Source of the DNA: Oidiodendron maius Zn
Taxonomy: Eukaryota; Ascomycota; Leotiomycetes; Myxotrichaceae
Assembly (NCBI GenBank): GCA_000827325.1
Contig: KN832904.1
Location: forward strand, 1 to 64,000
Direction: 5' to 3'
Length of the DNA: 64,000 nucleotides
Shown: positions 335 to 63,136 of the stretch, in pieces
Position numbering within the stretch: position 1 is the stretch's first letter
Layout: every line of letters begins with the position of its first letter
Notes under the pieces: generated by a model
What the model saw: the letters and a program-made list of their open reading frames with translations, nothing else
Database searches by the model: none
Told to the model about the DNA's origin: nothing
Program-made: the position numbers and the translations under genes

Positions 335-457
335 AACGCCGGAGGGACGCAGGTGACTCGAAGGGTAGTAGAACCAGGGTCGCTAGTTCCAGATTTCGTA
401 GTTATTTAATTTTATATTGAGGTTTAAGGTTGAATGTAGGGTATAAATTAAAATCGC
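1..457 (-). mobile_element. 5' end of a LINE-type retrotransposon copy, not RIP-mutated
   Basis: This block matches 7373–7830 almost base for base in order. The other copy has lost most CpG and CpA/TpG dinucleotides, while this one keeps them. Read on the minus strand it starts at 457 with a short AT-rich leader followed by an open reading frame from 334 that runs off the window. The other copy is the 5' end of an element whose reverse transcriptase is readable on the same strand, so this is inferred to be the 5' end of a second, younger LINE inserted into already mutated DNA. The rest of the element lies left of the window. Confidence 0.75.
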
Positions 458-39364: not shown

Positions 39365-41136
39365 GGAAGATCGGTTCGCGGACTCAACGAAGCAAGATAT
39401 CGATACGGGTCTGCAGGCAAGCAGTCGACGATGTAGGAGATGTAGTATTGGGAACTAGAGCAGCAAAGTAAGCAACGGACAGACGAAAAAGAGAAGCAGT
39501 GCCTTACTTGGGTGCTTCACAATGACCAGCTGTATGTTTACCAGCTCCAACGGCTTTTGTAGATTTTGTGCCCACCCACTGGGCTTATGCCACGTGTAGT
39601 TGAGACAAATTGCTGCGATGGAAGGAAGATGGGGCAAGATGCAGTACAGTAGGCATCAACGACTCGCTTTACTGTCAGTAAGCGAGCTGCTCACTGCTGC
39701 GCCGCAAAATCACAATCTTATTATTCTGACGACAACCAACTTCAACATCATGCCCCTTTCCTCCTCTCTTTCTTCCTTATTAATATCAGATTATAATTTA
39801 CATTGGCCATCATGGCCCTCTCACCTTCATTCCGTCGACTTCTGAAGCTGTTCATCCTTACCGCACTCGTTACGAGTCTCTTTTGCCTCGGACTCTCCCT
39901 TTACTGCGGTATATTCATGATTCCATACCTTACTTATTTTTAAATTCCTAAACATTAGTTGTATATAATTTTTAATTCTACATTAAAATATTAAGAAATG
40001 GCTAAGGTATTGCAGGTTTAAAATCGTGATTTTTGCGATAAAATTAGCTAACCGGCTCACTGATATGACCGGCTTACTGATGGACTACGTTAGCCTCTAA
40101 AGTTAATTAGAACTCTATTTTACTCCTTTATTCATCTCATAGGGCCAGTTGAGGGCAGAGAGAAGCCTCAAGTAGCTTAGTTGAGCAAGATAAAGGGATT
40201 CAGACTTAGAAGTATATAATATGGAAATAGACCGTGGTAGGATAACTGAAAATAGGGTGGAAATACTTTTATATAATAATACATAATGTTGAATAATCTA
40301 TTCATGTCCCTTCTAGCTGTAGTTGTGGCATAAAAGTACTTCAATTTATTATTTTAATAATGGGATGTAAAATTAACGAATTTGTACACGTAATATACGT
40401 GAAAACCTCCTTGTTATCTTATTCTATAACCTAGAACGCAACTTAAACATATATTATAATCTATAAATAGGTTAGAAAGGGGAAATAAGACTACAACCGA
40501 GTTATTACACTCTGACGTTTTAGGCCAGAGTTGAGTAAACATAGAAAAGATATTCACGTTATTGCTGATCTAGTATCTAATCAATTTGAAGTGAAGTATC
40601 ATACGAGTTTTTGGGGCTTTACAGTTAAATATCGCGTTATGGAATACAGGGGGCTTTGAAATTTCAAAAAGTACAAGCTTCTATTTAGGAACGAAAACTG
40701 TCAGCGAAGGTTGGACTTTGCTGACATGACGTGACATAACATGACATGACACGGCAGGATCATGACATCCATACACTCTTGTTCAAATTTGTCTCACTTT
40801 CCTGGGGTCAGAATCACTAAAAGTTATGGCGACTCCAAACCCTAGTAATATGGATGAAGACAAATGAAGAGTGGTCAATCTTTTTCATTCTGGCGCTAAG
40901 CTGGGGAAGCTGACATGCGGATACTTGAACACAAGTCCACCTCTGATGATTTGAGCATATCGATCCCTGTTCATATTATTACTTTGTAAGACTTTCTTTA
41001 TTTATTGCGAAGTCTGGTTACCTAACGTACAATCTTCTAAGGAGTTGGAAATCTAACAAATCACGAGCCAAAAGCTCACAAAGAGAAGAGAAATTTACCC
41101 AGATATACCCGCCGATCTAAATAGTCGGCAAGTAAA
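39365..41136. other. Intergenic, partly AT-rich, with a possible orphan first exon
   Basis: At 39812 an ATG opens 41 codons encoding a basic N-terminus and a hydrophobic span (FILTALVTSLFCLGLSLYCG), followed by a possible donor (GTATAT) and then AT-rich DNA without a continuation. It looks like the signal-anchor exon of a lost gene. From 39950 to 40700 the DNA is AT-rich and featureless. Confidence 0.3.
40720..40920. promoter_or_regulatory. TGACATG/GCTGACATG motif cluster upstream of oxygenase 1
   Basis: GCTGACATGAC begins at 40720 and is followed by TGACATA, ATGACATGACA and CATGACATC within 50 bp. A separate GCTGACATGCG lies at 40909–40919, 217 bp before the oxygenase start codon. The second one matches the 11-bp motif found three times between oxygenases 2 and 3. 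Role as a binding site of a regulator is inferred. Confidence 0.45.
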
Positions 41137-42215
41137 ATGGACTTTCCTGTTCTCGACTTTCAAGAATTTGTGATGGGGGACGAGGAGCATATGAACAAGT
41201 TCGCCGCAGCAATTGTCAATAGTTTTGAATTATATGGCTTTGTCAAGGTTATCAATCATGGACTCAGCACTCCTAAAATTGAACAAGCGTTTGCGTGGGT
41301 GAGTTTTTTGACTCGGTCAATCTCAAAATTTGAACTGAATGGCTTTCGCAGAGCCGTCGCTTCTTTGCTCTTCCCTTGGAGACCAAAATGAAATCGAAAC
41401 ACCCACCCAAATCAAACCCCCACCGAGGATATAGTTATGTCGGCCAGGAGAACCTATCTGCGCTCACCCGTGCAGATAGAAACTCGCCAAGACTATATGA
41501 CCTCAAGGTTAATGTCTCAAATCCGCTCCGGTGGGAAGTTATTCTGACATGTCAATAGGAGAGTTGGGATCAAGGTGCAACTGATGATCTTGAAAATCCC
41601 AATTTATGGCCAGAATATTCCGACATTCCTGGCTTTCAAGAGTTTATGGAAGTGTTTTTTCATGAGTGCCACGAAACGGAGGTGGCTCTACTTGAAGCAG
41701 TCGCGATGGGTCTGGGCTTGTCCAGAAATCATTTCGACTCTATGCATACAGACCGCGTGAATGAATTCAGGCTATTGCATTATCCTGAGGTTGAGGTCAA
41801 AGAGCTGCAATCAGGCATAAATACTCGTGCCTCCGAACACACCGACTTCGGTACCATCACTTTACTCTTCCAGGACTCCGTGGGCGGTTTAGAAGTAGAA
41901 GACCAATCTCAAATGGGTGTCTTTCGTCCTGTTGAAGCAGTGGCACCGATTATGGTAGTCAATATTGGCGACTGTATGCAAAGGTGGACAAACAACCGAC
42001 TGAAATCAGCATGCCATCGCGTAACTATCCCACCAAGGTGTAGCGATGGATGTGATGTGATTGATGAGAGATACTCGATTGCTTTCTTCGGGAAACCCAA
42101 TCGAAATGCTGAACTATATCCTCATCCTTTATTCATAAGTATTGATAACCCAAGCAAATATGAGCATACCACAGCGGGAGAATATAATCAAACCAGACTT
42201 GTCAAGGTGTATTGA
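41137..42215 (+). CDS. 2-oxoglutarate/Fe(II) oxygenase 1 (isopenicillin-N-synthase-like)
   Basis: Three exons (41137–41298, 41352–41507, 41559–42215) join in phase 0 to 324 aa. The N-terminal DIOX_N region includes GFVKVINHG and the segment PHRGYSYVGQE, seen in fungal amino-acid-oxidising members such as those of the echinocandin pathway. The iron site is HTD in ASEHTDFGTIT with the distal His in ACHRVTIP, and the 2-oxoglutarate-binding Arg in ERYSIAFF. It uses 2-oxoglutarate and O2 in the cytosol. It stands upstream of the NRPS on the same strand, and I propose that it oxidises a free aliphatic amino acid or the peptide. Family certain, substrate inferred. Confidence 0.9.
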
Positions 42216-43370
42216 CATTTAGGTATTTTGGATTTTAGTAAAGAAACTATTTCATGTCATTTAAAATTACATATCGAACACATGAGACGCTGAGCATTTC
42301 AACTCTACGGGTGAATTTGACATTTAATCTTAATGCTTGACCTCTGATAGATGAATTTAAGCCCATGAGATATAGAGATAGCTTTTCCCTTACCATTTAT
42401 AAATTTAAAGGCACTAAATAAATATCTAGGGGCTACAGGATTACATAAATCCAGCTACATTATTGTGAAAGAAGGCCCTTGCTTTCCGAATAAAGCCTGT
42501 AGGTAGGGACTGGCAAGAATTGGTGGAAGTTTAGCGGAAAATGCTCTAATGCAGTGGCCAGCGTGTAAGTTACCAACTTGTCAAAGTAGCCTATTGAGGT
42601 GAAGTTCGTCGGGCACTAACCAATAAAGAGGACTCACAAGTTCCCAGGACGACTCCAGAGGCTAGCGGCAAATGTTTGACATATTGACTGTCGGGACTAT
42701 TATTTACATCGTCAGGATTACTTTACGTTGCCTGTCAGATGTATTTATGCTGGTTATATTGTCGTCAACCCCATCATGCTAGGTCATGTCATGTCAGTCA
42801 TGTCTGGTCAGCACAGCTACAACGCTGCAACGCTGCAACGTAACGTACGAATTACTACGTCAGAAGTCATGTCACTACGCTAGACAGGGGGTATTCTGGC
42901 AAAGCAGCGGTTACAGCGCATTTACCAAATTTTAGTGATCGGTAGGGGCTTTATGTGCTATAAAATTAGGGCGTATAAGCCTATAGCTCACTAAATTTAC
43001 AGTGAACTTGGTTACTACTGTACGCAACTTGTAAGCGAGACAAACTACCTACAAAATAAGCCGATCCTTGTCTAGCGTAGTGACACGACTTTTCACGTAC
43101 AGTACGGCAGTATTTCGTAAGTAAGACGTTGACTATTATCGCGTTGGATTAGATTGAACACCTGAGGCATGCATCTGAGGGGAGTTTACGGAGACCTTAC
43201 TGTATGGAGACTGTAGCAAGCTTTTTTACTGTCGTATAGCTTCTTAAACTGCAAGTAGGTATTTGAGCACATCCAACTAGATGTTCGTGGCCGAGTTTAG
43301 TACCAGCTACTAGATTGTACTAATAAGTATTCCTATAGCTTAGAATAAGAGGCCGTACGCAAGGGTTCAA
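42216..43370. promoter_or_regulatory. NRPS upstream region with CATGTCA/GTCAGC motifs
   Basis: A run of CATGTCA repeats lies at 42784–42804 (the reverse complement of the TGACATG motif upstream of oxygenase 1), followed by GGTCAGC at 42806–42812. A tandem CAACGCTG pair lies at 42829–42842. No gene is seen in the 1.15 kb. The NRPS start itself has no clear TATA box. Confidence 0.4.
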
Positions 43371-46300
43371 ATGCCGGACTTAAACGGAGTTTCGCCAGAA
43401 TTGGCTGTCAATGATGAGAATGCATCAAATGCATATTGGAAGAATATTACCAAAAGTCTGCCATCGGCTATGCTGCAGATACCCGGGCAGAGGCCTCAAG
43501 TGCACGATGTCTGGCTGCCAACAACGGTGGAAATGGCTACAGCAGATGCTCGAACCCATATAATATCTGAGTCCATTATTTTGGTAGCCTGGGGTCTGCT
43601 TCTCCGAAGCTACGTTGGTGGTGGTGAAGTTTGCTTTGGATACACGGCGACCGAACATCCATATCGCAAAGAGGAGTCCACGCTCACTCCCGAAAAGGCG
43701 GTAAACTTACTCATTTGTCAAATGAAAGTCGAAAATTCAGATTCTATTCTTAACACCTTACAGACCGCGGAGATGCATTACAAAGAAGCTTTGCAATATA
43801 TTAACCACTCTTTAACTAGTGGAGAACTTGGCCTTGGATCTTCAAATACTTCTCTGTTTAATACCATGGTTCTTCTCAGGAAAAGTGATGGGCTGGAACA
43901 GTCTCGGTGCACAGATGATGCCTCTTCGGTAGGTTCCAAAATTCAATGCTTGTATCTGACAATGCATTGACCAAATCGTAGATTTTATATCCAGATGCTC
44001 ATATGATATTAAGCGTCGATAATATTAAAACATCTGGGATAACTCTGTGGCATAACGCTTCATACTTTGGGTCTACTCAAGCTTTATCCATTGCTCGCAC
44101 CCTGGAGAATATTCTGAATTTCTTGTTAAGTGATGACAGTTCTCGAGAAATTGGGAATATGGAAATATTACCCAACATTGACAGAGATCGCATTCGAGAG
44201 TGGAATCGATCGATTACTCTGCCAATGGGCTTATGCGTTCATCAACTAGTTGAGCGGCAGGCAATTCTTACACCCAACGCAACAGCGGTGTGCTCTTGGG
44301 ATGGTAATTTATCTTATGGCGATCTGGATCGCATGTCTACCCGCCTTGGCCATCATTTAGTTCACCAACTTGACGTCAAAATCGAATCTTTGGTTGGATT
44401 TGTGTTCGAGAAGTCCTTGCTAGCCGTAGTAACGGCCATAGGTAGGTTACTGTATATGTCAAAACTGCCACCGACGCTGATCCAGTTGTTAGCGATCTTA
44501 AAGTCCGGGGGAATCTGCGTGCCGCTTGATACCCGTCATCCTCAAAGCAGACTTAACAGTACAATGAATGATTCCGGAGTCAATATCGCTTTAAGTTCAT
44601 CGGCGTTTGGTGACCGAATATCGGGTAACACATCGAGAAAACTGCTCGTAGTAGACAATGCACTTTTTGCTGAGATGCCGGATTACTTTCCTAACGAAGC
44701 ATGCTCGGCTGTTCGGCCTGAGAATGGCGCATTCTTAATGTTTACTTCTGGTAGCACTGGTAAACCTAAGGGAATTTTAACAGAGCATGATGCTTTCGCC
44801 ACGAGCTGTCGCGACCACGGTGCAGCAATGCAGATTACAAGCCAATCACGCACCTTTCAATTTTCGGCGTATAGCTTCGACTCGAGTTTCAGCGATATGT
44901 TCTGCACATTCATGTCTGGAGGATGCGTATGTGTGCCATCTGATCATGATCGACTGAACAATCTGACCGATTCTATCAACCGTCTGAAAGCAAATGTCTT
45001 GTCTATCACACCAACCGTGGCAGATCAATTACTTCCGGAGGACTTAAAGACTTTGAAGGTACTTGTTGCTGGTGGTGAGCCTTTAACGGAGAGTATTGTG
45101 TCAAAATGGGCTGATCGAGTCACATTGATAAACATTTACGGCCCTACAGAATGTGTAAGTGCTTCTTACAACTTTCACTCGCTATTGTGGAATGATCATG
45201 ATACTTACTACGGAGATTTGTTTTAGGCTGTCTGGTGCATAGCGACGGATCGTATTCAAATAAGCCATGCTGCTAGTAACATAGGACGCGCGGTATGTGG
45301 GCGTACATGGATAGTGGACAGCTCAAACTATCAGAGCCTTGCGCCAGTTGGGGCCATTGGAGAGCTTCTTATTGAGGGTCCAATTTTGGCTCGCCACTAC
45401 CACAAACTTCCAAATGAAACCCGAGATGCGTTTGTCGATGCCCCTGACTGGATTAATAATACTAGTCATGGGTTAAAGCGACGGTTATACCGGACCGGCG
45501 ACCTGGTGCAGTATTGTGAAGATGGTACGATTAACTACATCCGCAGGATGAGCACGGAGGTGAAAATCGGTGGCCAGCGAGTCGAGCTGAGTGGAATTGA
45601 ACATGCAATTAAATCTTGTCTCCCACTTGGTACTGATGTTGCTGTGAGCCTCGTAAAGGTCACGGCAAAGAAGCCCATACTAGTATCGTTTATCTGCCTC
45701 AAAACCATACCTGGAGATGATGATCTGGCTATCAATAAGCGATCAATTCACATAATCGCAGACTTGAAGCGCGATCTCGCTGAATTGCTGCCAGCGTACA
45801 TGGTCCCGTCCTCAATATTCTCTACAAGACGTATTCCATTGACAAACTCTGGCAAATTAGACCGGGCCCGTCTGAATAAAATAGCCCTCAGCCTGCTTAT
45901 GGAAGATGCCAATGGGAACAATCACGTCCTGAATGGACAAAAGTACAACTTCACAGCACAGGAGAGTCAATTAAGACAGCTATGGGCTCTTTCACTCGGT
46001 GTGCCCGAAGCGGCTATAAAAGCAGAGTCGAACTTTCTGTCTCTCGGAGATTCAATAGCGGCCATGAAACTTGTTGGACTGGCACGTAGGAGCGGCCTAG
46101 CTCTCACCGTGGCCGATATTTACAACTTTCCGGTTCTCTCGGAGCTGGCCCTTCGTGGTGTTCAGACTCTGGGCGGGAGCGGGGAAGAACAGGAAGTAGT
46201 TCCTTTTGTTATGTTAAAGGGTAGCGCAAATCCTCTTAGACAGGCCATGTCGCAGTGCAATCTGCAAGCAGATGTTATTGAGGACATATATCCATGCACG

Positions 46301-49300
46301 CCGCTCCAAGAGGGACTTATGGCCCTCTCGGCGAAGGAACCAGGAACCTACCTCGCACAATATATCCTAAAGCTGAAGTCCACTGTCAGTACATCGCGGT
46401 ATAAAGACGCTTGGGATCACGTCATTCAGACCAACGGTATTCTGCGCAGTAGAATGTTTCAATCCGACAACCAAATTCTCCAGGTCGTGGTGAAAGAACG
46501 GCTTAAGTGGCAGTCTGTGACAGATCTTCAGGAATATCTCCTCGACGATAGGAAAACCACAATCGGGTTTGGAGATCCTCTGGTCCGCCTGGCAATGGTG
46601 AATCAAAATGGATGTCCAGCCGTCGTCGTCCTCACACTTCATCATTCTGCCTACGATGGTTGGTCGCTCCCTTTGATGTATAAACAAGTCGAGAACGCAT
46701 ACCATGGACTGGTACAGAATCCACCGCCTTCGTTCAGCATATTTATACGGCACCTGGCCACGGCTGATAGAAATATCTCAGAAATGTATTGGCGTACGCA
46801 ACTTCGTGATGCTAAGGCTCTCACATTTCCTTTGACATCCGCTTCTCACGGCCTCCAACCGCGTGCGAGAAGCACCGTGGGACAGAATTTAAGTTTTGCT
46901 AAGCCAGCACAATCTGAGATCACAACATCCATTCTCATCCGCGCAGCATGGGCACTATTGATCTGCCAACATTGCCTCACCGACGACGTGGTAGTAGGAA
47001 CTACGCTCTCGGGACGTAATGGTCCAGTTGCAGGTGTGGGCGAGATGGTGGGACCGACAATTACCACAGTGCCCGTAAGAATCCGGCTGGTGGCATCACA
47101 AACTGTAGAAGATTTCTTGCGACAACTTCAGGACCAGGCTACGGAGATGATACCGCACGAACATTATGGACTACGTGATATCAGCCGCCTTGGTAATGAA
47201 GGACAAATTGCATGCAGCTTTCAAAGTCTTCTACTCGTTCAGCCCCCCAATGAGCCATCCACAGAAAGACTCTGTGACTTTGACACTGCGCCGGAAGAGG
47301 CTGAGGAGATTGGCACATATATCTTGACCTTGCAAGTATGGACTGAAGACACCGGCGCACAAGTATTTGCCAGTTACGACGCAAATATAATAGACGGTAT
47401 TTACGTACAGCGGCTTCTCTACCAGCTAGAACATATCATTAAACAATTGTGCGCCCAGCCGCTGGCCTTCGTTCAAGACGTCAAGGCAATCAGTCAGCAT
47501 GATATACATCAGATCAGGGCATGGACAGGCGAGGGGCCTGAATTCATTGACCGATGCGTAAATGACATTTTTAAAGACAGAGTCCTCGAGAATCCAGATG
47601 CAGCCGCAGTTGATGCCTGGGATGGCGCTGTGTCTTACGGTTTGCTGGATGAATTGTCTTCTCGACTCGCCTGTCACTTGGTACATCTTGGCATAGGCCC
47701 AGAGATTACAGTTCCCCTGCTATCCGAGAAGTCCCTTTGGGCACAAGTGGCCCTCCTTGGCATTATCAAAGCCGGTGGAGTTTTTGTTCTCCTAGATCCT
47801 GACCATCCAGTAGCCCGCCTGCAAGAAATAGTCAGAGACGTCAATGCAAAATTGATTGTGAGCTCTGTTCAATACGCACAGTTGTGCTCTTCCTTCGGCC
47901 CAAGTGTTTGCACTGTCAGCAAGTCCATGATAGACGAACTCCCCAAATCTCCAGGGTCACCACGCACCAACTTGACTCCTAGAAATGCATTATACATTCA
48001 TTTCTCCTCAGGAACAACAGGGAAGCCAAAGGGCACAATTATCGAGCACTGCTCATATGCGACATCCGCCCATGCAACCGGCAGAGCTATAGATCTCAAC
48101 CGAACTCCTACTTCAAACAAAAGGGTATTCCATTTTGCTTCGCAAAGCTTTGACCCGTGTATTGATGAAATGCTTGGCACCCTCATACGTGGCGGCTGTT
48201 TATGTATTCCCTCGGATTTCGATCGGAATAATAATCTCGTTGTGGCGATCAACCGATTTGACTGCAACCACGCTACATTCACTCCATCTTTCGGGCGGTT
48301 GATCTCACCGAAGGATGTCCCAGGTCTACGAGCAGTGGTACTCGGTGGCGAATGCCTGACGGATCAAGACGTGGAACACTGGAAGGGGGTGGAACTGTTC
48401 AATGCATATGGGCCTAGCGAAACCACAGTGACATGCAGCGTCAAACGCTCTCCAGGGATTAATGGCAGTGATGCGCGAAGCCTAGGCTTAGCAATTAACT
48501 CCGCCAAATTTTATATTGTGGAACCGCAGAATCACCATCAACTCGCGCCAATAGGGGGTATTGGTGAGTTGGTAATTGATAGTCCAACGGTTGGGCGTCA
48601 TTACTTGAACGACCCTATTAAAACAGAGCAGGCCTTTGTGGAACGGCCAGCATGGGTTGGGAGAGATGCAGTACCGTTGGACCGGAAACTTTATCTTACC
48701 GGCGATTTGGTACGTTATGCGGCTAATGGAGAGTTCATATTTCTTGGACGCAAAGATCTCCAAGTCAAGCTCCGGAGCCAAAGACTCGAATTACCGGAAG
48801 TTGAGGACCATATCCAGAGAATTCTTCCAATTACAAGTGAGGTTGTAGCAGAGCTTGTTACTGCTCTGGATGGAAAGAGTCCCATATTGATAGCATTTGT
48901 GCGAGTTGAGCCGGACGATGAGGATATAAAATCATTTTCGGATGATCGAATAGCTTTACGAAATGACTGGGTAAAACTGGTCAGGGAGATAGAGATCCAG
49001 CTTGCAAAAGCAGTTCCTGTTTATATGATACCGTCTGCTTATATACCTTTGAAGCAGATCCCATTTACAAACTCGCGCAAAATCGATCGACAGGCTCTCA
49101 GAGCTATGGCGGCAAGCTTAACAACAGATGAACTAGCCGCATTCTCTGCTGCCCATAAATCGAAGAGGCTAGTGTCATGCGATTTAGAAAGAAGAATGCA
49201 GCGTCTCTGGTCTGTTGTTCTGGGAATCCAACCTTCCAGTATTGGCATGGATGATAGCTTTTTTCGGCTTGGCGGTGATTCCATCGACAGCATGAAACTC

Positions 49301-52300
49301 GTCTCAGCAGCCCGTGGCGAAGGTCTTTCTCTGACAGTAGGGAATGTCTTCCGCTATCCACGCCTATCCGAAATGTGTATGATGCTCAGTGCCAGCACCT
49401 CGGTCAACGATGAGAGTGAGGTGAATGCTTATTCCTTACTTGAGTCGGAAGATTCCATTAATTATACCCGAAACGAGGCCAGCCAGCAGTGCCAAATAGA
49501 TATTAATTGGATTGAAGATATCTATCCGTGCACGCCACTCCAGCAGGGCCTATTAGCTGTGTCCATGAAATACCCGGGTATGGAAATGGCGCAGAGCGTT
49601 TTTCCACTGCCGAGAGATGTAGACATGGCTCGATTCAAAGGAGCCTGGGAAGCTGCGGTGCGACGAAATGCAATCCTTCGGACTCGAATAATACAGACAA
49701 AGTTGGAAGCTTTGCAGGTCGTCACCTTAGAACCTATTCCTTGGCTCTCTGGTCATAACTTGGCCACTTATTTAACCGATGATCGGCGGAAGATAATGCA
49801 GCTCGGAGAAAGATTCTGCCGCTTTGCAATCATCGAAGAGGAGAAGTCGAATCTCTATCACTTCTGCCTCTCGATTCACCATTGCCTTTACGATGGATGG
49901 TCTTGGAACTTGATGATCAAGGAAGTTGAAGATATTTATCAAGGGAAATTATTGGCCAAGTTCCCCCAATTCAACAAGTTCATTGAGTATATACAAGCTC
50001 AAAACAGCGATGGCAAATCCAAGGATTTTTGGAAATCCAAATTCTCTGATCTTAGCGCATCCAGTTTCCCGAAGCTGCCATCTATTTCATACATGCCTTG
50101 TGCAAATGCCCTCATAAGGAGACTGGTTCCATTATCAACAGCCGTTTCCAAGGATATAACTATTTCAAACATGATTCGAGCAGCATGGGCAGTAATCATG
50201 TCAGCATACACAGAGAATGACGATGTAGTATTTGGATCAACAGTCACTGGTCGTAACGCTGCCATTGTGGGTATCGAAGGCATCGTTGGACCTACATTTG
50301 CAACTGTTCCCTTGCGAGTCCAGTTGGACAAGACCCAGAGCGTTGATCAGTACCTGCAGGATCTACAAGCCAACTTCAATGGAATGGATGGTTTTGAGCT
50401 GCTAGGCTTGCAAGCTATCAAGCAAGCTAGCATGGAGGCTGCAATGGCCTGTGAATTTCAGAGCATTATTATCGTTCAACCTCAGACGACCGATGATAAG
50501 AGGACGGGTATTCTGCAAGGACAACAAGATCGAGAGGAGATGTCTACCTTCAACAATTACGGTATAATGCTAGAGTGCGAGCCAAGTTCAGAAAGTGTCT
50601 TGATCAATGCAAGTTTTGACTCGAATGTCGTAGGAAAATTTCAGATGTCCAGAATCCTTGGGCAATTCTCACACGTTCTTCAGCAACTGCAGCTCGGTGG
50701 CGCTTTAAAGCTGATTGATATTGAGATTATTAGCCCTGAGGATTATGAGCAGATTGGAAAATGGAATAGTGACGATCCAGAAGTCGTCCATGAATGCATC
50801 CATAATGTCATACATGACCAAGCAATTTCGAGCCCAGATGCTCAGGCAATCTGTTCGTGGGATGGCAACATGACATTCTCAGAATTAGATCAAGTGTCGG
50901 ATCTTCTTGCGGCACAATTACGAGAACTTGGAACCGGCCCTGGATGGACGGTGCCACTGAGTTTTGCTAAGTCTAGATGGGCTATCATTGCCATGATGGC
51001 TGTGATGAAAACTGGTAGCGCATTTCTCCTACTTGACCCAGTCCACCATCCAGTACAGCGATCAAGTAGTCTCATAAAAGAAGTTTGTGCTAGAGTTTTG
51101 ATATCTGATCCCGAATACTCCAACGTGTTCGAATCGATAGTGGATTCGGTTGTCGTCCTGTCACCAACACATGCAGAGGCTCTTCTCCGACGCAATATAG
51201 TGGCTGGAAATGATTGCAATCCGGATAATGCACTCTGCGTATTGTTCACCTCTGGAAGCACGGGAAAACCAAAGGGGATCGTCCACACACATTCTGGATT
51301 ATGCTCCAGCTTCAAAGCCTTTGGGCCTGGATTGTTCCTCGACTCAAGCTCGCGAGTTTTGCAGTTTGCGGCGTACGCCTTTGATGCATCTATTGGTGAT
51401 ATTCTTGCGACCCTGATGCATGGAGGTTGCGTTTGTATTCCATCCGAGCACGACCGGATGAATGATCTTGCTGGCTCCATTCAAAGGCTGGACGCGAACT
51501 GGGCCCAATTTACGCCATCGCTCGGAAGGACGATAGATCCGTCAACGGTTCCAACTTTGAAGACTGTTGTGCTTGGTGGTGAGGCATTACTTCAAGGAGA
51601 TGTGAATCTCTGGGCTGAGAAGGCACATTTAATCTCCGCATATGGTCCAGCGGAATCATCGCTTTGCATTGCTGGAACCCTGCAAAATGGAAAGCGCTGC
51701 CCGCCAAACCTAGGATTCCCTCTTGGATGTCGGACCTGGGTTGTCGATATATTGGACAATAATAAGCTATGTCCTATTGGCGTGGTTGGAAACTTGGTAA
51801 TCGAGGGCCCTGTGAATGCTGCTTTGGGTTATTTGAACGATCCCGAGAGGACTGCTGCATCCTTTCTAGACTCTCATGCTGCAATCGAAGCAGTCTGCGG
51901 GACACGACCTCACAGAATGTACAATACTGGTGATTTAGTCCGATATAGTTCTGACGGAAGTGTCGAGTTCGTGACCAGACGTGACACACAAATCAAGCTT
52001 CGCGGTCAACGAATCGAACTGAGTGATGTTGAGTTTAACTTACACGAAATCCTTGCTGCTAAAGGCCATGCTGTTGATTCAGCGGCAGGAATGATTTTTA
52101 TCAATGGAAATAGCACCAAGACGATGCTGGCAGCGTTCGTATGCAACGAGAAATGGTGTGAACCCTCAACTGAACCGGGAGCGGAAGCAGACTTGAATAA
52201 CTTGCACTCATACATGACAACCACCATGTCATCTAAGCTACCAAATTATATGATACCTTCCATTATTATCCCAGTCAAAAAAATGCCCCGAACGACATCC

Positions 52301-55300
52301 GGGAAGATTGATCGAAAAGCGCTTTCTAGCTATGCCATAAACTTAGGTCCAGATCGGCTTATGGCGTACACACGGACGAAGAGAACTGGAGAACCAATCA
52401 AGACGGAACCGGAAAGAAAATTGCGCTCATTATTTGCCAGATGTCTGGACTTGAGTGAGACTGATATTTATGCCGACGACATGTTTGCCAGACTTGGTGG
52501 TGACTCAATCCAGGCAATGCGCCTGGTGGCTATGGCACGAGATGAAGGCCTGTCATTAACTGTGGCTGATATATTTACCCTGCCAAATCTGTCCGCTCTT
52601 GCCATTTCCTGCTCTTCGGAAGCCCGTAGCAGTAATATGGTAGATCCGAATCGGATTTCTGATGACCTTGCAGTCGATAATTTATCAAAATCGCCTGAGT
52701 TAGAAAGCATTATTCTAAATTATGGCCTGAACCCAGATAAAATCCAGGATATTTACCCGTGCACCCCGCTCCAAGAAGGATTGATGTCTTTATCCATTAT
52801 ACGAGATGGATCCTACGTTGCGTATAACGTATTTGAACTACCACCAAACTTGGACGTTGTAAAGTTCAAGGATTCCTGGATAAGAACTGTCCGCCTCAAT
52901 CCAATTTTACGAACTCGATTTATCCAAATCAATAAACTCATGATACAGATTGTGATCGATGAAGACTTAGACTGGCGGACTGGGTGCGACCTTATTGAGG
53001 ACGTCAAAAAGGAACGCGAGTCAATCATGGCCTTCGGAACTCCACTGAATCGCTTCAAACTAGTTTCAGATACGAAAACGGACAAAACTTTCTTCTTGTG
53101 GTCATCCCATCATGGCACATATGACAGTTGGTCTATGAATATTATACTTAAACAAGTCAAAGATTATTATAAAAACGCCATGGTCACAGAAGGCCCTAAA
53201 TTCAGCTCTTTCATCAAGTATGTGTTAAATACAAACAAAAGTTCAGCAGCATATTGGGCAGATCAATTTGAATTTGGCGCTCCTTTGAGTTTTCCATTGC
53301 TTCCAACTACAGCTTATCAACCCAAAGGAAGATCTTCCATTCATTCTTCGATTTCGTTAGAAAGAGTTACAGGCTCCAACATTACAACGTCAACAATAGT
53401 TCGTGCTGCCTGGGCAATATTGCTAAGCCAGTATTCCAATGATCCACGCAACGTATTGATGGGCACCGTTCTATCAGGCCGTTCAGTCCCTGTCGTTGGC
53501 GTGGAATCTATTGCAGGCCCGACAATATGTACTGTCCCTATCGCTGTTCAGATCGATCAATCGCAAACAACTAGACGTTTTCTTGAAGTAATTCAGCACC
53601 AGTGGTTAAAAATGATCCCACATGAGCATTTTGGTCTTCAGAATATTGCTCGCTTGAGCAGCGGTTGTAAAGCTGCATGCAACTTTCAGAATCTGCTTGT
53701 TATTCAACCAACAGAGCAGGGTGATTTGCAAAATACCGATGTGATGGGCAAATGTATAGACATGGACGACGGGTCAAATTTCTACACTTATGCATTAACG
53801 ATGCAATGTACCATTGCCCAGTCAGGTATCCACATTTCGGCTACTTTTGACGACAAATTGACAGAACCAAACCATGCGCAGAGGATTGTCAACCAATTTA
53901 GCCATATTATTTCCCAACTTTATTTAGAGAGTTCTAACCAAATTATTGCAGATTTGGAAGTTATTAGCCCGGAAGACAAACGCGAATTGCAAATGATCCA
54001 GGCCGAAACTTCCAAAGCCTATTGGCAGAAGGAATTCGAAGATTGGACACCACAACCATTTCCCTTACTACCGAGTTTAGAGTATAAACCATTCGCGAGA
54101 TCAACTTACCAAAGTGAAATCAAGTTTGACCGAAAGCGAAATTCACAATTTACAAACTCCACTCTTGTGCACGCCGCTTGGGCACTTTTAGCTTCTCAGT
54201 ATATCAATTCGAATGATGTGGTTTTTGGATCTACATTATCAGGACATAATCCATCCGTCTTATCAGCTGAAGACATGAGTTCAATCCGGAATACAATACC
54301 AGTCCGTGTTAAAATTGATACAGAACGCAGCATGAGCGGATTTCTACAAGATCTTCAGCATCAATCAACAGAGAGAATTCCATTCGAACAAACAGGGCTT
54401 AACAAGATCAAAATATTTAGTCAATTATGCCAAGAAGCTTGTAATTTTCAGAGTCTTCTTAAGATACGAGATTTTCAAGAAGCAAAGTCCTCAAAGGAGG
54501 GAATGTATGATGTTGATGAATCTCCCACCGATGTCGAGTCATTCAATCAGTACGCCCTATTCGCATCTTGGAGTCTCAGTCATGCTGGCGCAGAGGTAGT
54601 AGTTTACTTCGATGAAGAGGTTTTGGATCAGCACCAAGTGCAGAGGCTCATGAGACAATGTGGTCATTTGCTAAACGTCCTTTCCATCGAGGACGACAGA
54701 CCACTGAAGGACCTTAAATTAATCAACGAATTCGACTTCAAAGAAATTGTAGACTTAAATAGGAACGTTCCTATCTTGCAACAAATCTGCTTGCAGGATC
54801 TGATTAAGCCCGGATTCAGCGAGCCACAAGCCACGGCAATCGATTCTTGGGATGGTTGTTTCTCATATGCTGAGCTGGAAGAGTTATCGAGTCTCTTAGC
54901 ATCGTACTTAACCACGCTTGGCGTAGGTCCTGAAGATATTGTGCCGCTTTGCTTCGATAAGTCCAAGTGGGTAATTGTTGCTGCACTTGGAGTGATAAAA
55001 TCTGGAGGTGCATTTGTTTTCTTTGATCCCCATCACCCCAGGGCTCGACTCGAATTTAACATCAAAAACCTCGAAGCAAAGGTTATTTTGAGTACGAAGA
55101 GTTATAAAGACATCTGTGGCCTAGACGTGACAATACAGCGTGTCATTCTTGATGCCGAACTACTTTCTGGCCTCAAAATGACATCTAAATCAGCCGTCCA
55201 AGATATCAAGGTCCAGCCTACCAACACTGCATATGTTCTCATGACATCTGGTACTAGTGGAATGCCCAAAACAATTGCTCATGATCATGTCTCTGTCTGT

Positions 55301-58209
55301 TCCAGCATTGTTGCGCATTCTAAAATTTTTGGAATTTCGAAGACTTCTCGTGTATTGCAAATTGGAGGTCTAACCTTCGATGTCATTCTCACGGAAATAT
55401 TCCTTACTTTGATGAAAGGTGGTTGCATCTGTATCCCTAGTGACGAGCATGGAATTAGTGGTGTTGTTGATTTTATTGAGCTCTTTCGAGTATCGTGGGC
55501 TTTCTTTACTCCTTCTGTCGCTCGTAGTATCAGACGAGACTGGCAGAAATTGGAAAAAGTAGATTCAAGTACTTTGAAAACGCTAGTTTTAGGTGGTGAG
55601 CAAGTTACTATCACCGATATACAGGACTGGGAGAAGAGTGTACGTCTGCTGCAGGCCTATGGAACCAGCGAGGTAAGCCTCTCCATTTCTTAAACAATAT
55701 CAGCCGCTCGAAACCATCTACACGAACTAGTCCTATCCAAATTATTAATGTCAATGCGGTAACCGATGAAAAATCCTATCGACATTACAAATTACTGTTG
55801 CTACGTTTGTGTATTAACTTGACTTTTCAATAGGCTCAGGGTTGGATTATCGGGGATTATTCTGATGGCAGCCAAACCCACAGCCAAACTGGACGTGGTG
55901 TCGGCATTGTACCATGGATTATTGATTCGAAAAACCAGTTGCTACCTATCGGGGCTATTGGTGAACTCGCCATCTCTGGGCCCACAGTTTCAAAGGGTTA
56001 CATCAAAGACCCTGCGTCGACAGCCAAGACTTTTGTTGATCGTATAGCTTGGCTACCAACGTCGGATGCTAGTCGACGGATATATAAAACCGGAGACCAA
56101 GCACGAATGAATTCCAACGGAACAATCTCAGTTTTTGGGAGAATCGACAAGCAAGTTAAGCTTAATGGACAGAGAATATCCTTAGAAGAGATCGAGATAT
56201 GTCTAAAACGTATCCTCCCAAGCTTTGTGCAGGTAGTAGTAGAAATCATTAAGATCAGGGGCGAAAGCTTGACTTCGAACTTGGTGGCTTTCGTTAGCAT
56301 AGCCCCCTCCAGCAATGGAGTCGCTATCAATGGCATTAGTACTGATAGAGTCACCAACGGGAATGGAGAAATATCCGGCGATAATGAGATTGACTTCAGA
56401 CAGCTCGTCAAGAATGCACAAACTCAGCTGCTAACCATTCTGCCTTCTTATATGGTCCCTGGGATATTTGTTCCCTATGGTACCTTTCCGATCAACAAAA
56501 ATGGAAAGTTACAGCGAGAGGAACTTCGACATTACGGTAGCACTCTGCCTCTACGGCAACTACTAAAATACACAAGCGACGAATCCGATGATGATCTGAA
56601 GAAAATCTTACGCCCGGATGAGGAAGTAGCTCTTGGCGTCAATGCAATGGTAGTTGATATTATATCTGATTTCGACACTATCTACGCCGATACCCTACGC
56701 GGGCGAGACGTCGTAATATCTAGCACTGGTCTTGATTCTATTGCAATAATCTCACTCGCCACAGCCGTAACTCGCACTTATAATGTGATTATACCGGTGG
56801 GGAAATTCATGTTGCACAACCTCAGAGTTAGAGATGTGGCTCAGCTTATCCAGGAAGCAAAATCGAGCAATGGCCATTACCATTCAACTCACTTGCAGAC
56901 AAAGGTAGATCTAAGAAGGTTTGAGGATGGTCAGTTCAAAACTAGAATGGATTTAAGATCTGAATTCTTAATTCTCGATGCCCAGCTAAAGAAAGGCGCC
57001 TCAATGCTGGGCGATGGCCCCGAAATACTGTCTACGGTTTTCTTGACAGGCGCAACCGGCTTTCTTGGAATTCAAATCCTAAGACAATTATTAAGTCACG
57101 TAAAAGTCAAAAAAGTTATTGTGCTCGTACGTGCAGATGATACTCGGGAAGCAAGGGCCAGGATTCTGAAGGCTGCTGCTGCGGCAAGATGGTGGTCACC
57201 GAGACTCTTATCATCTTTGGAAGTCTGGACCGGCGATCTTGCAAAGCCCCGTTTTGGGTTACATGATGATGAGTGGAATTGTCTGAATGGCTCTACCAGC
57301 AAACTAGAAGACAGGGTTGATGCGATTATACACAACGGTGCAGTTGTCCACTGGGGTCTGAGCTACGAGAGATTAAAAGCGGAGAACGTGCTTAGCACTT
57401 TACAACTATTATCTCTTTTATCTTCATCCTCAACCTTACAAGGATTTACTTATGTATCGGGAGGTCAGTCCGGGAATAATAACAATAGCTTGGACATTGG
57501 TGAAGAGTCATCAACAATGAATGGATATAGCCAGAGTAAGCTATTATCTGAACTTTTAGTAAAGAGCTATGCAGAAAATTACGCTCAACCTCATCAAAAC
57601 GTCAAGATCCTCAAGCCTGGACTGATCGTCGGAACCCGTCAAGAAGGTGTTTCGAATACTGACGATTTTCTCTGGAGAGTTGCTGCCGGCGCTGCAAGAG
57701 TTGGTGGATTTAGTTCCAGTGAAAAGAACTCTTGGATATCGGTTGCCGGTGTCGACAGGGTCGCAAGCTTGATAGTCGAGAGATGTTTAGATTCCAAGGT
57801 TGACAAGGAGATCATGGTCTCTCTCGACTATGGCTTATATGTCAGCAAATTCTGGGAGATCATCAGCACCACTTTGGGCATAGATTTGCGGCCGATGAAG
57901 CAGTTAGAATGGATCGATTCCCTACAAAGAGACATCAAATCCACGGGGAAATTGCACCCTATGTGGCCTGTCATGCATTACTTAGAAATAGGAGACGGGT
58001 ATATCGGCGAGGAAAATCATGGTTTGATCGAGTCTCAGCAACAGGCAGAGAAAGAGGAAACAGTCTCTGCGATCCAGAAAAGCGTCGAGTATCTTGCTAG
58101 TATAGGATTTTTCTCTAAGGATGAGCAGTGGGCTTGCACTTGTTCCACTGGGACTCAGATATTCAAGCGTTCTAGTGTCCTTTCAGCTGTCCTTAAGGGG
58201 ACCGCCTAA
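43371..58209 (+). CDS. Four-module non-ribosomal peptide synthetase with terminal reductase
   Basis: Exons 43371–43928, 43982–44441, 44493–45154, 45227–55672 and 55834–58209 join in phase to 4833 aa. Order: partial C (no HHxxxDG), A1, T1 (Ser836), C1 (HHSAYDG at 1032), A2, T2 (Ser1912), C2 (HHCLYDG, 2111), A3, T3 (Ser2987), C3 (HHGTYDS, 3188), a second partial C (about 3484–3738), A4, T4 (Ser4344), R (TGATGFLG at 4447, Tyr4607/Lys4611 in GYSQSK). A1–A3 have normal ATP loops; A4 has TSGTSGMPKTI and YGTSE in place of YGPTE. Hand-aligned pocket codes are DSSSVGIVW, DPDTVGAVT, DAGQVGALC and DVTFVGAGW; I assign no substrate from them. There is no epimerisation or TE domain, so a linear tetrapeptidyl chain should leave by NADPH reduction as an aldehyde or alcohol. 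The 51-bp intron in A1 is in frame and easily missed. Confidence 0.95.
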
Positions 58210-58870
58210 TGCCCTAAGCATCATGATGAATTGGGTGGCAAACTCAGGCACGATAGATTAATGTATTTACATATGCCAGCCCCCTTCATGGTAGCTTAAT
58301 TTTCATCGATACTCTCATTTCCGAATCTACAGTTTATGATTCAATAATCAAGGAAGCTTGACGGCCTAATGTGCAGCTATTTCAAACTCAAGAGTCAGGC
58401 TCTGGGCGCATGAATTTGCTTTATTTATCCGACTTCCGGAAGATTCTTTCATCAATGAGGCTATACTATTTCCTGTCCGTGATACCCACTCAAGTCATAG
58501 GTCGAATTGGACGTATGCAAGCCGTTCCATTTGGAGAGTCGACACGCTATAAAGCTTGATTCGCGTGCAATATGTCCAAAGAATTGATACTGAGACTATT
58601 TTGTTTGATTCAATGTAACTAACTAATTAATTACTAGATTCCTAGATGTTTTAGTACTAAGATATTATTGGTAGCCGCATATGCAAAGTCATTAAATTAT
58701 GTTCAGGTCAGCATCTGCGTAACCGCGTCATCAAGATGCTCCTATAGTCGTCACGTTAGCAACGTGTTACGGAACTACTACATAACTCATAATTTTGCTG
58801 CTATAAAATTCTCTACTTAGTAAATATCACTTTGCCATTTCTCTAAAACTGATATATCCACTCTCCGGGC
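58210..58870. other. Intergenic DNA between NRPS and reductase genes
   Basis: AT-rich. A GGTCAGCATC (reverse of GATGCTGACC) lies at 58706–58715 and shares the GCTGAC core with the other cluster promoters. No gene is seen. Confidence 0.4.
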
Positions 58871-59854
58871 ATGAATAAATCACTACCCAACGCCGAAGAT
58901 CTGGTGGTAACTATTCTTGGATGTGGTACAACACGAAGTCAACCCTATTTCCCCGAGAAAATCTAGTTAACCAGAAAAATAGGAAAATTGGGCACCGCAA
59001 TTTTAACAGGCTTTTTAAAATCACATCAAACGTCAAATGGCGAGTCCACGTCGAATGACTCGGGGCCAAAAGCCCATGCTCGTCCGCTCAAACATTTCAT
59101 AGCCTGCGTCCGGACCGAAAAGAGCGCGGCTCGCCTCAAGGCCTTATTTGATGCTGAGTCCAGTATGGTGACTATTTTGACTGGCGAAAATCTTAAGGGT
59201 GTCCAGCAAGCCAACGTGATAATAATCGGCTGCGAGCCTTCTGGATACCACGAAATTCTCAATTCTTCGGGAATTTGTGAAGCAGTGAGCGGGAAAACTC
59301 TTATCAGCATTTTAGGAGGAGTGACAGTTGAAATGCTCACGGTGGCACTCTATAGCCGTCAACCCTCTACGCAGATTACCCATCCCTGCAATATAATCCA
59401 AGTGATGCCAAATATTGCTGTGGCTATCTGTAAAAGCATTACTACGATTACAAAACCAAATCCTTTGCAGTCATCCGATGCCATTGAAATTGCCCACAGC
59501 TTGTTCTTACGTCTTGGGCACGTCAGAACTTTGCCGGAAAACTTTGTCGATACAGCCACTGTGGTGACTGCATCCAGTCCTGCATTCTTCACCGTTATGC
59601 TTGATGCGATCGCGACCGAAGCAGAAAGAGCAGGCTTCAGCAGAACGGAAGCACTAGAATTATCAGCAAGAGCTATGAGCAGTGCAGCAGAGTTAATTTT
59701 ACATGGTGAGGCTCCAGATGGAGTGTGTAAAAAGATAGCTACGACAGGAGGATCTACGGCGAGGGGGCTGAAGGTCCTCAAAGATGGCAACATACTAGAT
59801 CTCATTGGTGATGCATTCAGGGCAACACGACATGGTCAGCATTCAAATTGTTAA
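58871..59854 (+). CDS. Pyrroline-5-carboxylate reductase (cluster paralogue)
   Basis: Two exons (58871–58925 and 58983–59854) join to 308 aa; the 57-bp intron splits the Rossmann glycine motif, which reads LGCGKLGTAIL once joined. The rest follows the P5CR family: PSGYHEIL, the segment GKTLISILGGVTVEML, CNIIQVMPNIAVAI (the conserved RxMPN region, here Q-x-MPN), and the dimer-domain end DGVCKKIATTGGSTARGLKVL. P5CR reduces a pyrroline-5-carboxylate to proline with NAD(P)H. A 2-kb neighbourhood of NRPS and oxygenases suggests that it reduces a substituted pyrroline made from an oxidised branched amino acid. The Arg usually before MPN is Gln here, a possible sign of changed substrate. Family certain, role inferred. 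Confidence 0.9.
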
Positions 59855-60213
59855 CAAGTCTCTATTCTAGACAATTATTAATCCGGTATTTATAGAGCTG
59901 AACATAATGGTAATAATTTGTTGTCTTTATTTACTTTTTAATCTTACATGCTTTGCAAAGAGAGCCACCTGTTAAGGCCAAGTGCAAAGCCAGCTGGCTA
60001 TGTAAATTTAGCAAATCTTGTGAAAGTACAAATTCACGTGTATTTCAAATCGAAAGTCGTTAATAATCACTCAGCAAGGCTAAGAAAAGCCTCAGCAACT
60101 GAAGATGTATTGACTGGTTTAAATGCAAACGCTGCATAGAGTCATTTAATTCTGATTATTTAATCCCGCCTCTTTTGTCTGTCTAAACAAACCCCATACA
60201 TCTCGAACCCTAC
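59855..60213. other. Convergent 3' intergenic region
   Basis: The tails of the reductase and oxygenase 2 genes meet here. A 63-codon open frame (59948–60139) has no recognisable features. Confidence 0.4.
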
Positions 60214-61312
60214 TTAATAAGCAGTTAGTAACCTTTTCTGATGATATTCGAGAGCCGTCATATCCTCATAACGCGTAATCTCACTATCCTTTACAAAATA
60301 CGGCAATGGCCCCACCGATATATCTCGATCTGCTTTGCAGAGGTATGCTACTGAATAGCGCTCTGGGATTTCTCCGTCCTGTAGTCCTTTCATATGCTGG
60401 GGAATCGTCACTTGGTGGAGTCCGGCGGGAAGTCTGTCGTTAGTCCACCGTTGCAATGTTTCACTAACATTAACAATCATTTCCGTCTGCAGCTCAGTCT
60501 CGACAGGTATAAATGTGCTAGGCTCTTGTCGATTCTCAAATTCCAGGCCCCCCACAGTGTCAGCAAAGAGAAGTGTAATGATTCCCAAGTCGAAGTGCGG
60601 CCAGATCCGATTAACGTTACCAGCTCGCATCTCCTCCAAGGTAATAGGTGGGTAATAGTTGAGCCGCATCTCACTTGCATTCTCCTTGCAGCGATTGCGA
60701 AATGTTCCAACGGGCAAATTAAGAGCCTCTTCTAACCCTTCAAGTATTTCCAAGCTGGCTCTCTCGCAAAGTAAAAAGTACGTCTCCATAGACGACTGAA
60801 ACCCAGATATTTGATCCTCTGCAGGCCATCTATTAGGGAATAATGGATCATCTTTTCTGCCTTGGTCGAAATGTTCCTACATATGTCAATTTGGGAAAGA
60901 CTGGACCAAAGGGTTTAAAATTTACCCGCGCATCTTTAAGATCAGGTGAAACCAACTGACCCATCATCTTTCCATATAGACTTGAAGTCTTTTCCATACC
61001 AATACTACTCCATCCACGTTGTGGATTTGGGCCGGGCGGATTGGAAATGGTGGCTTTTACTTTGGTTGGAAGAGCGAAAAAGCGTTTACTCTATAAAATT
61101 ATGTCAATTTTGGATTTTAAACTGGGCTCAGAACTCATTGAAATACTTACCAGCTCAAAGAAATCTTTGACAACGTCATCTAGAATGCCATGGTTTGACA
61201 ACCGAACGACTCCATGAGCAGATAGACTTGCACAGAGATCTTGCACATACTTCTTACGAAGTGATGGTGATCCGCTACGAAAATTAGATGCATCAAGGAG
61301 AGGAATGCCCAT
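60214..61312 (-). CDS. 2-oxoglutarate/Fe(II) oxygenase 2
   Basis: Three exons on the minus strand (61312–61151, 61090–60926, 60876–60214) join in phase 0 to 329 aa. The protein has the DIOX_N region with LSNHGIL and NPQRGWSSIGMEK, the iron site HFD in IWPHFDLGII, the distal His in AGLHQVTIP and Arg in ERYSVAYL. Intron positions match those of oxygenase 1, so the two are paralogues. The threonine or serine after HxD in most relatives differs, and the pocket segment around MEKTSSLYG differs from oxygenase 1, fitting a different substrate or a later step. It is transcribed away from oxygenase 3 from a shared upstream region. Confidence 0.9.
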
Positions 61313-62006
61313 AGTGAGTTGTCTTGAGAACGAGTCGTTTTGAAGTTGTTGATTTTGTACCTAGGGGTCGAATAGAAACTGACAAGACGATTCCTGACTT
61401 TGCTCCTCAGTACTTGTTCATTAACTCCAGAGAACAATTGGAGTCGGTCTACAATATGTCTCCTGAATATTCTTCAGCCTCTGAATGGTTAATTGTCACT
61501 AAAGCTCGGGCTTCGGAAGGCGGGGGTTTTCATTGTACAAATGTCTAATCGATAAGGTGATACTCAATAGTCGGTCTCATCCGACCTCTGCCGATCTCAA
61601 TAAGGACCGGAAATAACTCGGTCGTATCTCATCCTTGTGTCTCATATGCTGATATGATCTTATGCTGACACGCTAGAGTATTATGCTGACATGCTAATAT
61701 GCTGACACGCTGACCCAACAGATTCCGCATTGTCAGCCTTCGTTTAAGAGACTCTCACTAACTCTCAGCATTCCATTGACAAAAAGTAAAACTCTACGTC
61801 TTTTCTGTTGGTGAAGATGAATATAGACGTTTATCAAAGCCCTGCAAGTCGCCCTTTGTTGAGTTAGGTCATGCTAAGGTCGACCTCGAACAAGAATAGC
61901 GTCCCATAGTCCAAATCATATGTTATGCTGGTAGAAGGAAACTCATGTGCTATGACTGTCACGCAAATCTATATATTTATTTTCTCATATAGCCTCCTAT
62001 CATCGT
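61313..62006. promoter_or_regulatory. Divergent promoter of oxygenases 2 and 3 with a triple 11-bp motif
   Basis: GCTGACAYGCT occurs three times in one orientation at 61664–61674, 61685–61695 and 61701–61711, with a related GCTGATATG just before. This is 350–400 bp from the oxygenase 2 start and about 300 bp from the oxygenase 3 start. TATATATTTA at about 61972–61981 lies close to the oxygenase 3 start. Binding of a shared regulator is inferred. Confidence 0.55.
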
Positions 62007-63136
62007 ATGCCTAATATGGAACTTTCTCTCTTAGACCTCTCGCTCTATACCAATGGCTCACCTAACGAGTGCCAAATCCTGTTCGAACAAGTTCTCCTGA
62101 GTTGCGCAAGCAGTGGATTTGTTAAGTTTGTCAATCATGGAATTCCTGACGAGAAGATTTCTGAAGCATTTGAATGGGTATAAATTACTTTCCAGGTATC
62201 AACTCTTGATCACAAAATTGACATTCAATGCAGAGCCGAAGATTCTTTACACTTAGTGATGCAGCTAAATCAAAAGCTGCTAGACCTTCACGGCTAGGAC
62301 CAAATCGTGGTTGGGCGTCTATTGGCCAGGAGAAAATTTCAAAGATTACTGGGGTGATAAAAGGAGAGACATCTTCTGTTGCCATTGAGGACATGAAGGT
62401 AGAGTTTTCAAACATGCCAGAGTTGGATCAATGCTCATATATTCCATTAAAGGAGTCCTTTGACCTGGGACCTCATGATGATCCTATATTTCCTACACCT
62501 TGGCCAGCTGAGAGTGATATACCTTACTTTAAATCTTTCATGCAGTCATTCTATGATGACTGTCACGAGGTCCACATGCTGATTCTTCAAATTCTTGAAA
62601 AGTCTCTGGGTCTCGAAAAAGGAAGGCTTAGCTCTCTTTGCGGAGATGGCAATGCGGAACTTCGAATCGCACACTATCCTCCGATTGAGATTAGGAGTAT
62701 TACATCTGGTAAAGTAATGCGAATTGCAGAACATACAGATGTTGGAACAGTAACACTTCTATTTCAGGACTCCGTAGGAGGTCTTGAAGTTGAAAACCAA
62801 AAAAGACCCGGTACTTTTATTCCTATACACAGTTCTTCAACGAGTGAGATGATTGTCAACATAGGCGATACACTCCAGAGGTGGACAAATGAAGTTCTTT
62901 GCTCCGCCAACCACAGAGTCACTATTCCAGTGAATATGCAACATTTGTCTGATGGCCTGATCTCTGCAAGAATATCCATTGGCTACTTTGGAAAAGCAAA
63001 TCGAGACATTTCACTCCGACCACTTACTGAGTTTGAGGGCAATGGTGGCTCGCGATTTAATGATGAAATCCAATCTCAGGACTACTATACCGGAATCCAC
63101 GAAAGGTCTTATCCAGCTCCAGAATTATTAACCTGA
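62007..63136 (+). CDS. 2-oxoglutarate/Fe(II) oxygenase 3
   Basis: Two exons (62007–62177 and 62234–63136) join in phase 0 to 357 aa; translation could also begin at the fourth codon. GFVKFVNHGIP and PNRGWASIGQEK mark the N-terminal region; the iron site is HTD in IAEHTDVGTVT, the distal His is in SANHRVTIP and Arg in ARISIGYF. It keeps the first intron position of oxygenases 1 and 2 but lacks the second. The C-terminus is about 25 residues longer and ends in a polar tail. Its core is closer to oxygenase 1 (LLFQDSVGGLEVE shared exactly) than to oxygenase 2. Likely role: oxidation of an amino acid precursor or of the peptide. Confidence 0.9.

Follow-up and report, generated by a model that had tools for sequence, protein, structure and literature searches.

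Does the fungus Oidiodendron maius Zn encode, beside one of its nonribosomal peptide synthetases (NRPSs), the enzymes that would provide that synthetase with an unusual proline? The question is raised by a group of five genes in the window analysed here, i.e., the first 64 kb of the 150-kb contig C35 (KN832904.1), in a genome of 45.9 Mb. We compared these genes with the genome itself, the Protein Data Bank (PDB), the family libraries Pfam and NCBIfam, and published papers. Two single-sequence structure predictions came out at low confidence, with a mean predicted local distance difference test (pLDDT) of 36.6 and 37.2. On balance, we consider it fairly probable that the five genes form a cluster that both makes methylproline and provides it to a fungal NRPS.

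The cluster is real and intact. Between position 41137, where the first oxygenase gene (oxy1) starts, and position 63136, where the last one (oxy3) ends, there are three intact genes for 2-oxoglutarate- and Fe(II)-dependent (2OG) oxygenases, an NRPS of 4,833 residues, and a reductase of the pyrroline-5-carboxylate reductase (P5CR) type (Table 1). The gene models were spliced by eye from a reading of the DNA; all five are open, and their families were assigned with Pfam and, for the NRPS and the P5CR, also with NCBIfam. A genome search with the oxygenase family PF03171 gave 24 locations, three of them in the cluster, and about 0.01 would be expected in any given 22 kb. An earlier note on this DNA had listed a four-module NRPS ending in a reductase, three 2OG oxygenases with intact iron sites, and a P5CR, all within 22 kb between these same ends, and this inventory holds; one clear and one tentative half condensation domain are to be added to it.

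Table 1. Positions in the window of the cluster genes, of two domains of the NRPS, and of the intergenic stretches richest in the promoter word.
Feature	Position	Strand	Exons or residues	Remarks
oxy1, 2OG-Fe(II) oxygenase	41137..42215	+	41137-41298, 41352-41507, 41559-42215	324 aa; PF03171, 64.6 bits
NRPS	43371..58209	+	43371-43928, 43982-44441, 44493-45154, 45227-55672, 55834-58209	4833 aa
P5CR-type reductase	58871..59854	+	58871-58925, 58983-59854	308 aa; PF14748
oxy2, UcsF-like 2OG oxygenase	60214..61312	-	61312-61151, 61090-60926, 60876-60214	329 aa; PDB 9ktp match
oxy3, 2OG oxygenase	62007..63136	+	62007-62177, 62234-62398, 62453-63136	339 aa; best PDB match UcsF
C-lobe-only condensation half-domain, directly before A4	53984..54736	+	residues ~3480-3730	C-lobe identity to condensation domains C1, C2, C3
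Terminal R domain, thioester reductase-type	57028..58110	+	residues ~4441-4800	PF07993, TIGR01746, PDB 6nki
Upstream of oxy1	39983..41136			2 TGACATGA; 1 TGACGTGA at 40727-40734
oxy1-NRPS intergenic	42216..43370			4 TGACATGA

All three oxygenases keep the HxD...H and RxS residues, and their last exons score above the Pfam cut-off of 23 bits for 2OG-FeII_Oxy (64.6, 50.4, and 60.9 bits for Oxy1, Oxy2, and Oxy3, respectively). Oxy2 aligns end to end with UcsF (PDB 9ktp; residues 1-329 on 1-333, E-value 2.6e-103, 348.7 bits, 52% identity), and the motifs WPHFD, SETLQRW, and LPAGLH around the iron are common to both proteins. By full length and by iron-site surroundings, the assignment of Oxy2 as a UcsF-type amino acid oxygenase is well supported. 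UcsF is also the best PDB match of Oxy3 (9.8e-52), and the second best of Oxy1 (6.9e-50) after thymine 7-hydroxylase (3.8e-59). In a tree of nine rows, the three cluster oxygenases, UcsF, and homologs from two other contigs (C22 and C38) form one clade (support 99/98), in which Oxy2, the C22 protein, and UcsF group together (93/91; 99/97 when the C38 protein is added) and Oxy1 and Oxy3 are deeper branches. This tree leaves out four of six further oxygenase loci, for which the motif filter returned no frame, represents the C22 and C38 proteins by their last exon, and is unsurely rooted owing to one very long row. We rejected Oxy1 as a thymine 7-hydroxylase given its place in the UcsF clade and the closer match held by contig C15 (65% to 5c3p). 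The oxygenases could instead act on the NRPS-bound or finished peptide, with no free methylproline being formed. That Oxy1 and Oxy3 have iron-site surroundings of their own would suit such a role, but Oxy2 is similar to UcsF over its whole length, and we regard this alternative as very unlikely.

The P5CR gene lies tail to tail with oxy2, at a distance of 359 bp. Its product has the GxGxxG nucleotide motif at the start of the model (GCGKLG) and matches PF14748 (P5CR_dimer) with 72.4 bits in a Pfam scan (cut-off 25). A search of the genome with PF14748 returned four P5CRs, on contigs C1 (126.2 bits), C22 (98.0), and C18 (90.6) and in the window (74.9, the lowest); the window copy is 35%, 33%, and 27% identical to those of C1, C22, and C18, respectively. 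The copy on contig C1 is the probable housekeeping enzyme. A loop that reads GSGPAF in this copy is altered in the three others (ASSPAF in the window, ASGTAF in C22, GPSGVF in C18). The earlier note had worried that the P5CR might merely duplicate the housekeeping enzyme; the changed loop speaks against a mere spare copy, without fixing the substrate.

Since an oxygenase of the type of UcsF, which acts on isoleucine, adjoins a diverged P5CR, a route from isoleucine to methylproline is the best reading of this gene pair. The route put forward in the earlier note is thus supported for Oxy2 and its neighbour, but of the three oxygenases only Oxy2 resembles UcsF around the iron. Two other roles for the P5CR have to be weighed. 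The enzyme could reduce a lysine-derived piperideine carboxylate and supply pipecolate, as in apicidin F and KK-1, the oxygenases then having tailoring roles only. The apicidin F NRPS has four modules and is accompanied by a P5CR and a bANK regulator, and deletion of APF3 swapped pipecolate for proline (PMC4109984, available part); kk1I of KK-1 has been read likewise (PMC10512319, available part). However, the apicidin F gene table, in the part of the source available, lists no 2OG oxygenase, whereas here the UcsF-type Oxy2 adjoins the P5CR and the NRPS ends in a reductase domain, and we find a pipecolate supply distinctly unlikely. Alternatively, the P5CR could act after release, the peptide aldehyde and an amine forming a cyclic imine that the enzyme then reduces. 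Such a role could draw on the altered loop and on the nostocyclopeptide aldehydes, which close to macrocyclic imines (PMC7551626, available part), but the product of a UcsF-type oxygenase is a pyrroline, for which a reductase is already required, and the oxygenase and P5CR genes lie side by side; we hold it to be most improbable.

The NRPS has the order (half C)-A1-T-C-A2-T-C-A3-T-C-half C-A4-T-R, where A, T, C, and R stand for adenylation, thiolation, condensation, and reductase domains, i.e., four A, four T, and three full C domains and a terminal R domain by Pfam and TIGR01746. The Ser is kept in all T domains and HHxxxD in all full C domains. The half C domain before A4 is a clear case (30-36% identity to the C-lobes of domains C1, C2, and C3); it comes after a full C domain and may be what remains of a module since lost. 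The N-terminal half C domain is tentative (24-29% identity over 35-91 residues), and a Pfam search of this region gave no match. The T1-A2 and T2-A3 intervals each hold a single C-sized domain, which leaves no room for an epimerase.

The R domain is of the thioester reductase type. It scores 146 bits against PF07993 (NAD_binding_4; Pfam cut-off 20.1) and passes the NCBIfam thioester-reductase cut-off (TIGR01746, 222.9 vs 213.35 bits). Its nearest relative in the PDB is 6nki, annotated as an NRPS (2.6e-65; 37% over 353 positions), which we take to be the reductase domain of PhqB, of the reductive release type. The Tyr and Lys (YxxxK) of the Ser/Thr-Tyr-Lys set are kept, and Pfam found neither a thioesterase nor a further C domain in the last NRPS exon. 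Judged by these features, release by reduction is probable.

A transporter and a candidate regulator are encoded to the right of the window. The former is an ABC transporter gene (ABC_tran and ABC_membrane, Pfam); the latter, a minus-strand gene at C35:70.9-72.1 kb, some 13 kb away from the NRPS, combines ankyrin repeats (Pfam) with a basic region, ERRKVQNRISQRLHR, recognised by eye. The bANK factors known from apicidin F and HC-toxin are built in this way (PMC4109984, available part). When all 8-mers were counted in the cluster intergenic DNA (6,893 bp in total), TGACATGA, a word one base away from the Api-box, and its shifted twin ranked first, with seven occurrences; the rate in C35:8001-104000, these intergenic stretches excluded, would give 0.12 and 0.19. 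In 200 shuffles, TGACATGA was found 0.235 times on average and three times at most. The word is not over-abundant in the genome (1,481 in 45.9 Mb, reversed control 1,638; about 0.2 expected in the cluster intergenic DNA); it has no occurrence in C35:1-39982, C35:73001-104000, or 50 kb of C38, and one in 60 kb of C22. Two other words were set aside. The exact Api-box, TGACGTGA, is present four times in the window, a count matched by 3 of 100 shuffles, and just once in the cluster intergenic DNA. The relaxed word TGAC[AG][TC]G is found 16 times in the 6,893 bp (mean 2.0 and largest count 8 in 200 shuffles) and was picked after the data had been seen. The cluster intergenic DNA contains no ToxE box.

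In the pathway that we propose, Oxy2 would oxidise the terminal carbon of isoleucine to an aldehyde, which would close to a methyl-pyrroline carboxylate, and the cluster P5CR would reduce the latter to 3-methylproline, to be loaded by at least one of the four A domains. For Oxy1 and Oxy3, the substrate may be a second amino acid, the ring of the proline, or the peptide itself. Four residues would be joined by the NRPS, and reductive release by the R domain would most likely yield an aldehyde, which possibly then cyclises; the earlier note had proposed a linear aldehyde or alcohol. The ABC transporter would export the product and the bANK-like factor would turn the genes on. A bolder version, which we regard as unlikely, would have each of the three UcsF-family oxygenases specialised for its own aliphatic amino acid or position, with one dedicated reductase serving all three, and several different substituted prolines entering the four-module NRPS; the reduced end would then close on the peptide to a cyclic imine, making the product a fungal counterpart of nostocyclopeptide with an independently evolved proline supply.

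Several observations weigh against a dedicated methylproline supply feeding this NRPS, or against parts of it. Oxy1 and Oxy3 lack the surroundings of the UcsF iron site and have EHTD with LKSACH or LCSANH in place of WPHFD with LPAGLH. The P5CR scores 153.1 bits against TIGR00112, below the cut-off of 196.75 bits for proC equivalogs, and because the C18 copy is altered in the same loop, the loop change is not peculiar to cluster genes. With a provisional numbering of positions, the A-domain codes (DSSSVGIVWK for A1, DPDTVGAVTK for A2, DAGQVGALCK for A3, DVTFVGAGWK for A4) gave no substrate call and differ from that of the C22 enzyme (DVWFSGIVPK). The promoter word is confined to three of the seven cluster intergenic stretches, with none beside the P5CR gene or between oxy2 and oxy3, and as it is missing from the other four, shared control has fair support for oxy1 and the NRPS but thin support for the remaining genes. 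Moreover, the top count of any 8-mer with at least two G/C reached a mean of 4.3 and a maximum of 6 in 200 shuffles, vs the 7 observed, such that the leading word stands out modestly when none is specified in advance. Finally, the R domain has Gly at the Thr position of its catalytic set (Thr in MxaA, Ala in 6nki). With one catalytic position altered, we call reduction likely; the domain could instead serve ring closure or be inert, the product being freed in some other way. The kept Tyr and Lys, the passed TIGR01746 cut-off, and the last exon with no thioesterase or further C domain by Pfam all speak against this, as does 6nki, presumably a reductive release domain, which also has no Thr; we see a non-reducing R domain as improbable and still favour reductive release.

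The genome holds further loci with UcsF-like enzymes. In C22:1-50000, a UcsF ortholog (78% across 226 compared residues) lies beside what by eye is a hybrid of polyketide synthase (PKS) and NRPS, with an R domain, and a P5CR is encoded about 20 kb away. This reads as a UCS1025A-type locus, and therefore methylproline may be supplied twice in this fungus, by separate loci; we accordingly rejected C22 as a second copy of the window cluster. At C38:50-66 kb, a UcsF-like oxygenase lies near a PKS-like gene (by eye), and a BLAST search of 50 kb there, with the NRPS and the P5CR of the window as queries, gave no further match.

The surroundings of the cluster contain other genes. A reducing PKS in several exons (KS, AT, DH, methyltransferase, ER-like, KR, and ACP domains) occupies positions 25297-35707 of the window, with an FSH1-type hydrolase just upstream. 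This region has a G+C content of about 0.52 vs 0.44 and no TGACATGA, and the PKS and its neighbours are probably a separate cluster. Between positions 14838 and 23838 there are P450 fragments (17376-18359, the second below the Pfam cut-off), two alpha/beta hydrolases, a protein with a fungal rhodopsin domain, and a methyltransferase-like frame below the cut-off. On the minus strand, a Zn2Cys6-like cysteine pattern lies in pieces, apparently split by an intron, at 36058-36653, where Pfam reports no such domain, and a 2EXR-family gene at 38468-39454 separates the PKS genes from the NRPS cluster. Positions 1-8000 are an AT-rich block with dinucleotide ratios like those of repeat-induced point mutation (TpA/ApT 1.6-1.9); no telomere repeat was found in the window. 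About 5-10 kb beyond the cluster (L010:2796-8094) are a frame with AMP-binding and carrier domains and a hexapeptide-repeat protein, and on the far side of the contig (C35:132307-133032) another reductase-type domain is part of a 1,350-residue frame.

If true, the proposed pathway would add a fungal case of one locus encoding the supply of a rare amino acid, the assembly of a peptide, and its reductive release. Peptides become stiffer with substituted prolines, which are wanted as building blocks, and enzymes able to produce these from ordinary amino acids have practical value. The cluster is of interest to specialists, also for Oxy1 and Oxy3, two UcsF-family enzymes with iron-site surroundings of their own. 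A literature search, outside which most subscription literature lay, revealed no account that we recognised as the same gene set.

How does the cluster compare with known systems? The NRPSs of apicidin and HC-toxin have a cyclising terminal C domain and no reductase end, whereas the window has an R end and three 2OG oxygenases. Shared features, in the available part of the apicidin F and HC-toxin account, are a four-module NRPS, a P5CR (apicidin F), a gene that here is a candidate bANK regulator, and a promoter word that differs from the Api-box at a single base. As a further difference, the open reading frames scanned at 41-72 kb, which are part of those present there, gave no match to an aminotransferase, a fatty acid synthase, or a P450. 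The earlier note did not recognise the combination of genes, a statement that is too strong. One precedent is paraherquamide, in which an R-ended NRPS, a 2OG oxygenase, and a P5CR (PhqB, PhqC, PhqD) serve methylproline in the same combination as here; the window differs by four A domains vs two and by three oxygenases of one family. A paraherquamide-like alkaloid cluster was rejected, the indole prenyltransferase family PF11991 being found at three places in the genome (contigs C14, C26, and C3) and none on C35.

UCS1025A shares with the window a UcsF-type oxygenase (52% to Oxy2) and a P5CR in the cluster, the P5CR-type enzyme being the partner of UcsF. It differs in having a PKS-NRPS (PMC7421883, available part); here such a locus lies apart, on C22, with a UcsF ortholog at 78%. 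The earlier note had named both UCS1025A and the echinocandins as precedents; the echinocandin likeness is looser, the reductase lying outside that cluster and the NRPS having six A domains (PMC7778625, available part). Given that place of the reductase and the four A domains here, we rejected an echinocandin-like cluster. In Beauveria felina, the 2OG oxygenase DetxE and a P5CR make 3-methylproline from isoleucine, but the P5CR is said to come from primary metabolism and the NRPSs are six-module depsipeptide synthetases (PMC8384895, available part). P5CR-like genes are also part of swainsonine-type clusters (PMC13293291, PMC8403587, available parts), and the leucinostatin cluster, in the available part of its description, has no nos-type methylproline genes (PMC4946873). 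The second precedent for the combination is nostocyclopeptide in cyanobacteria, where methylproline genes, an ABC transporter, and an R-ended NRPS lie in one cluster; that system is bacterial, has seven modules, and replaces the 2OG oxygenase by a Zn-dependent dehydrogenase (PMC7551626, available part).

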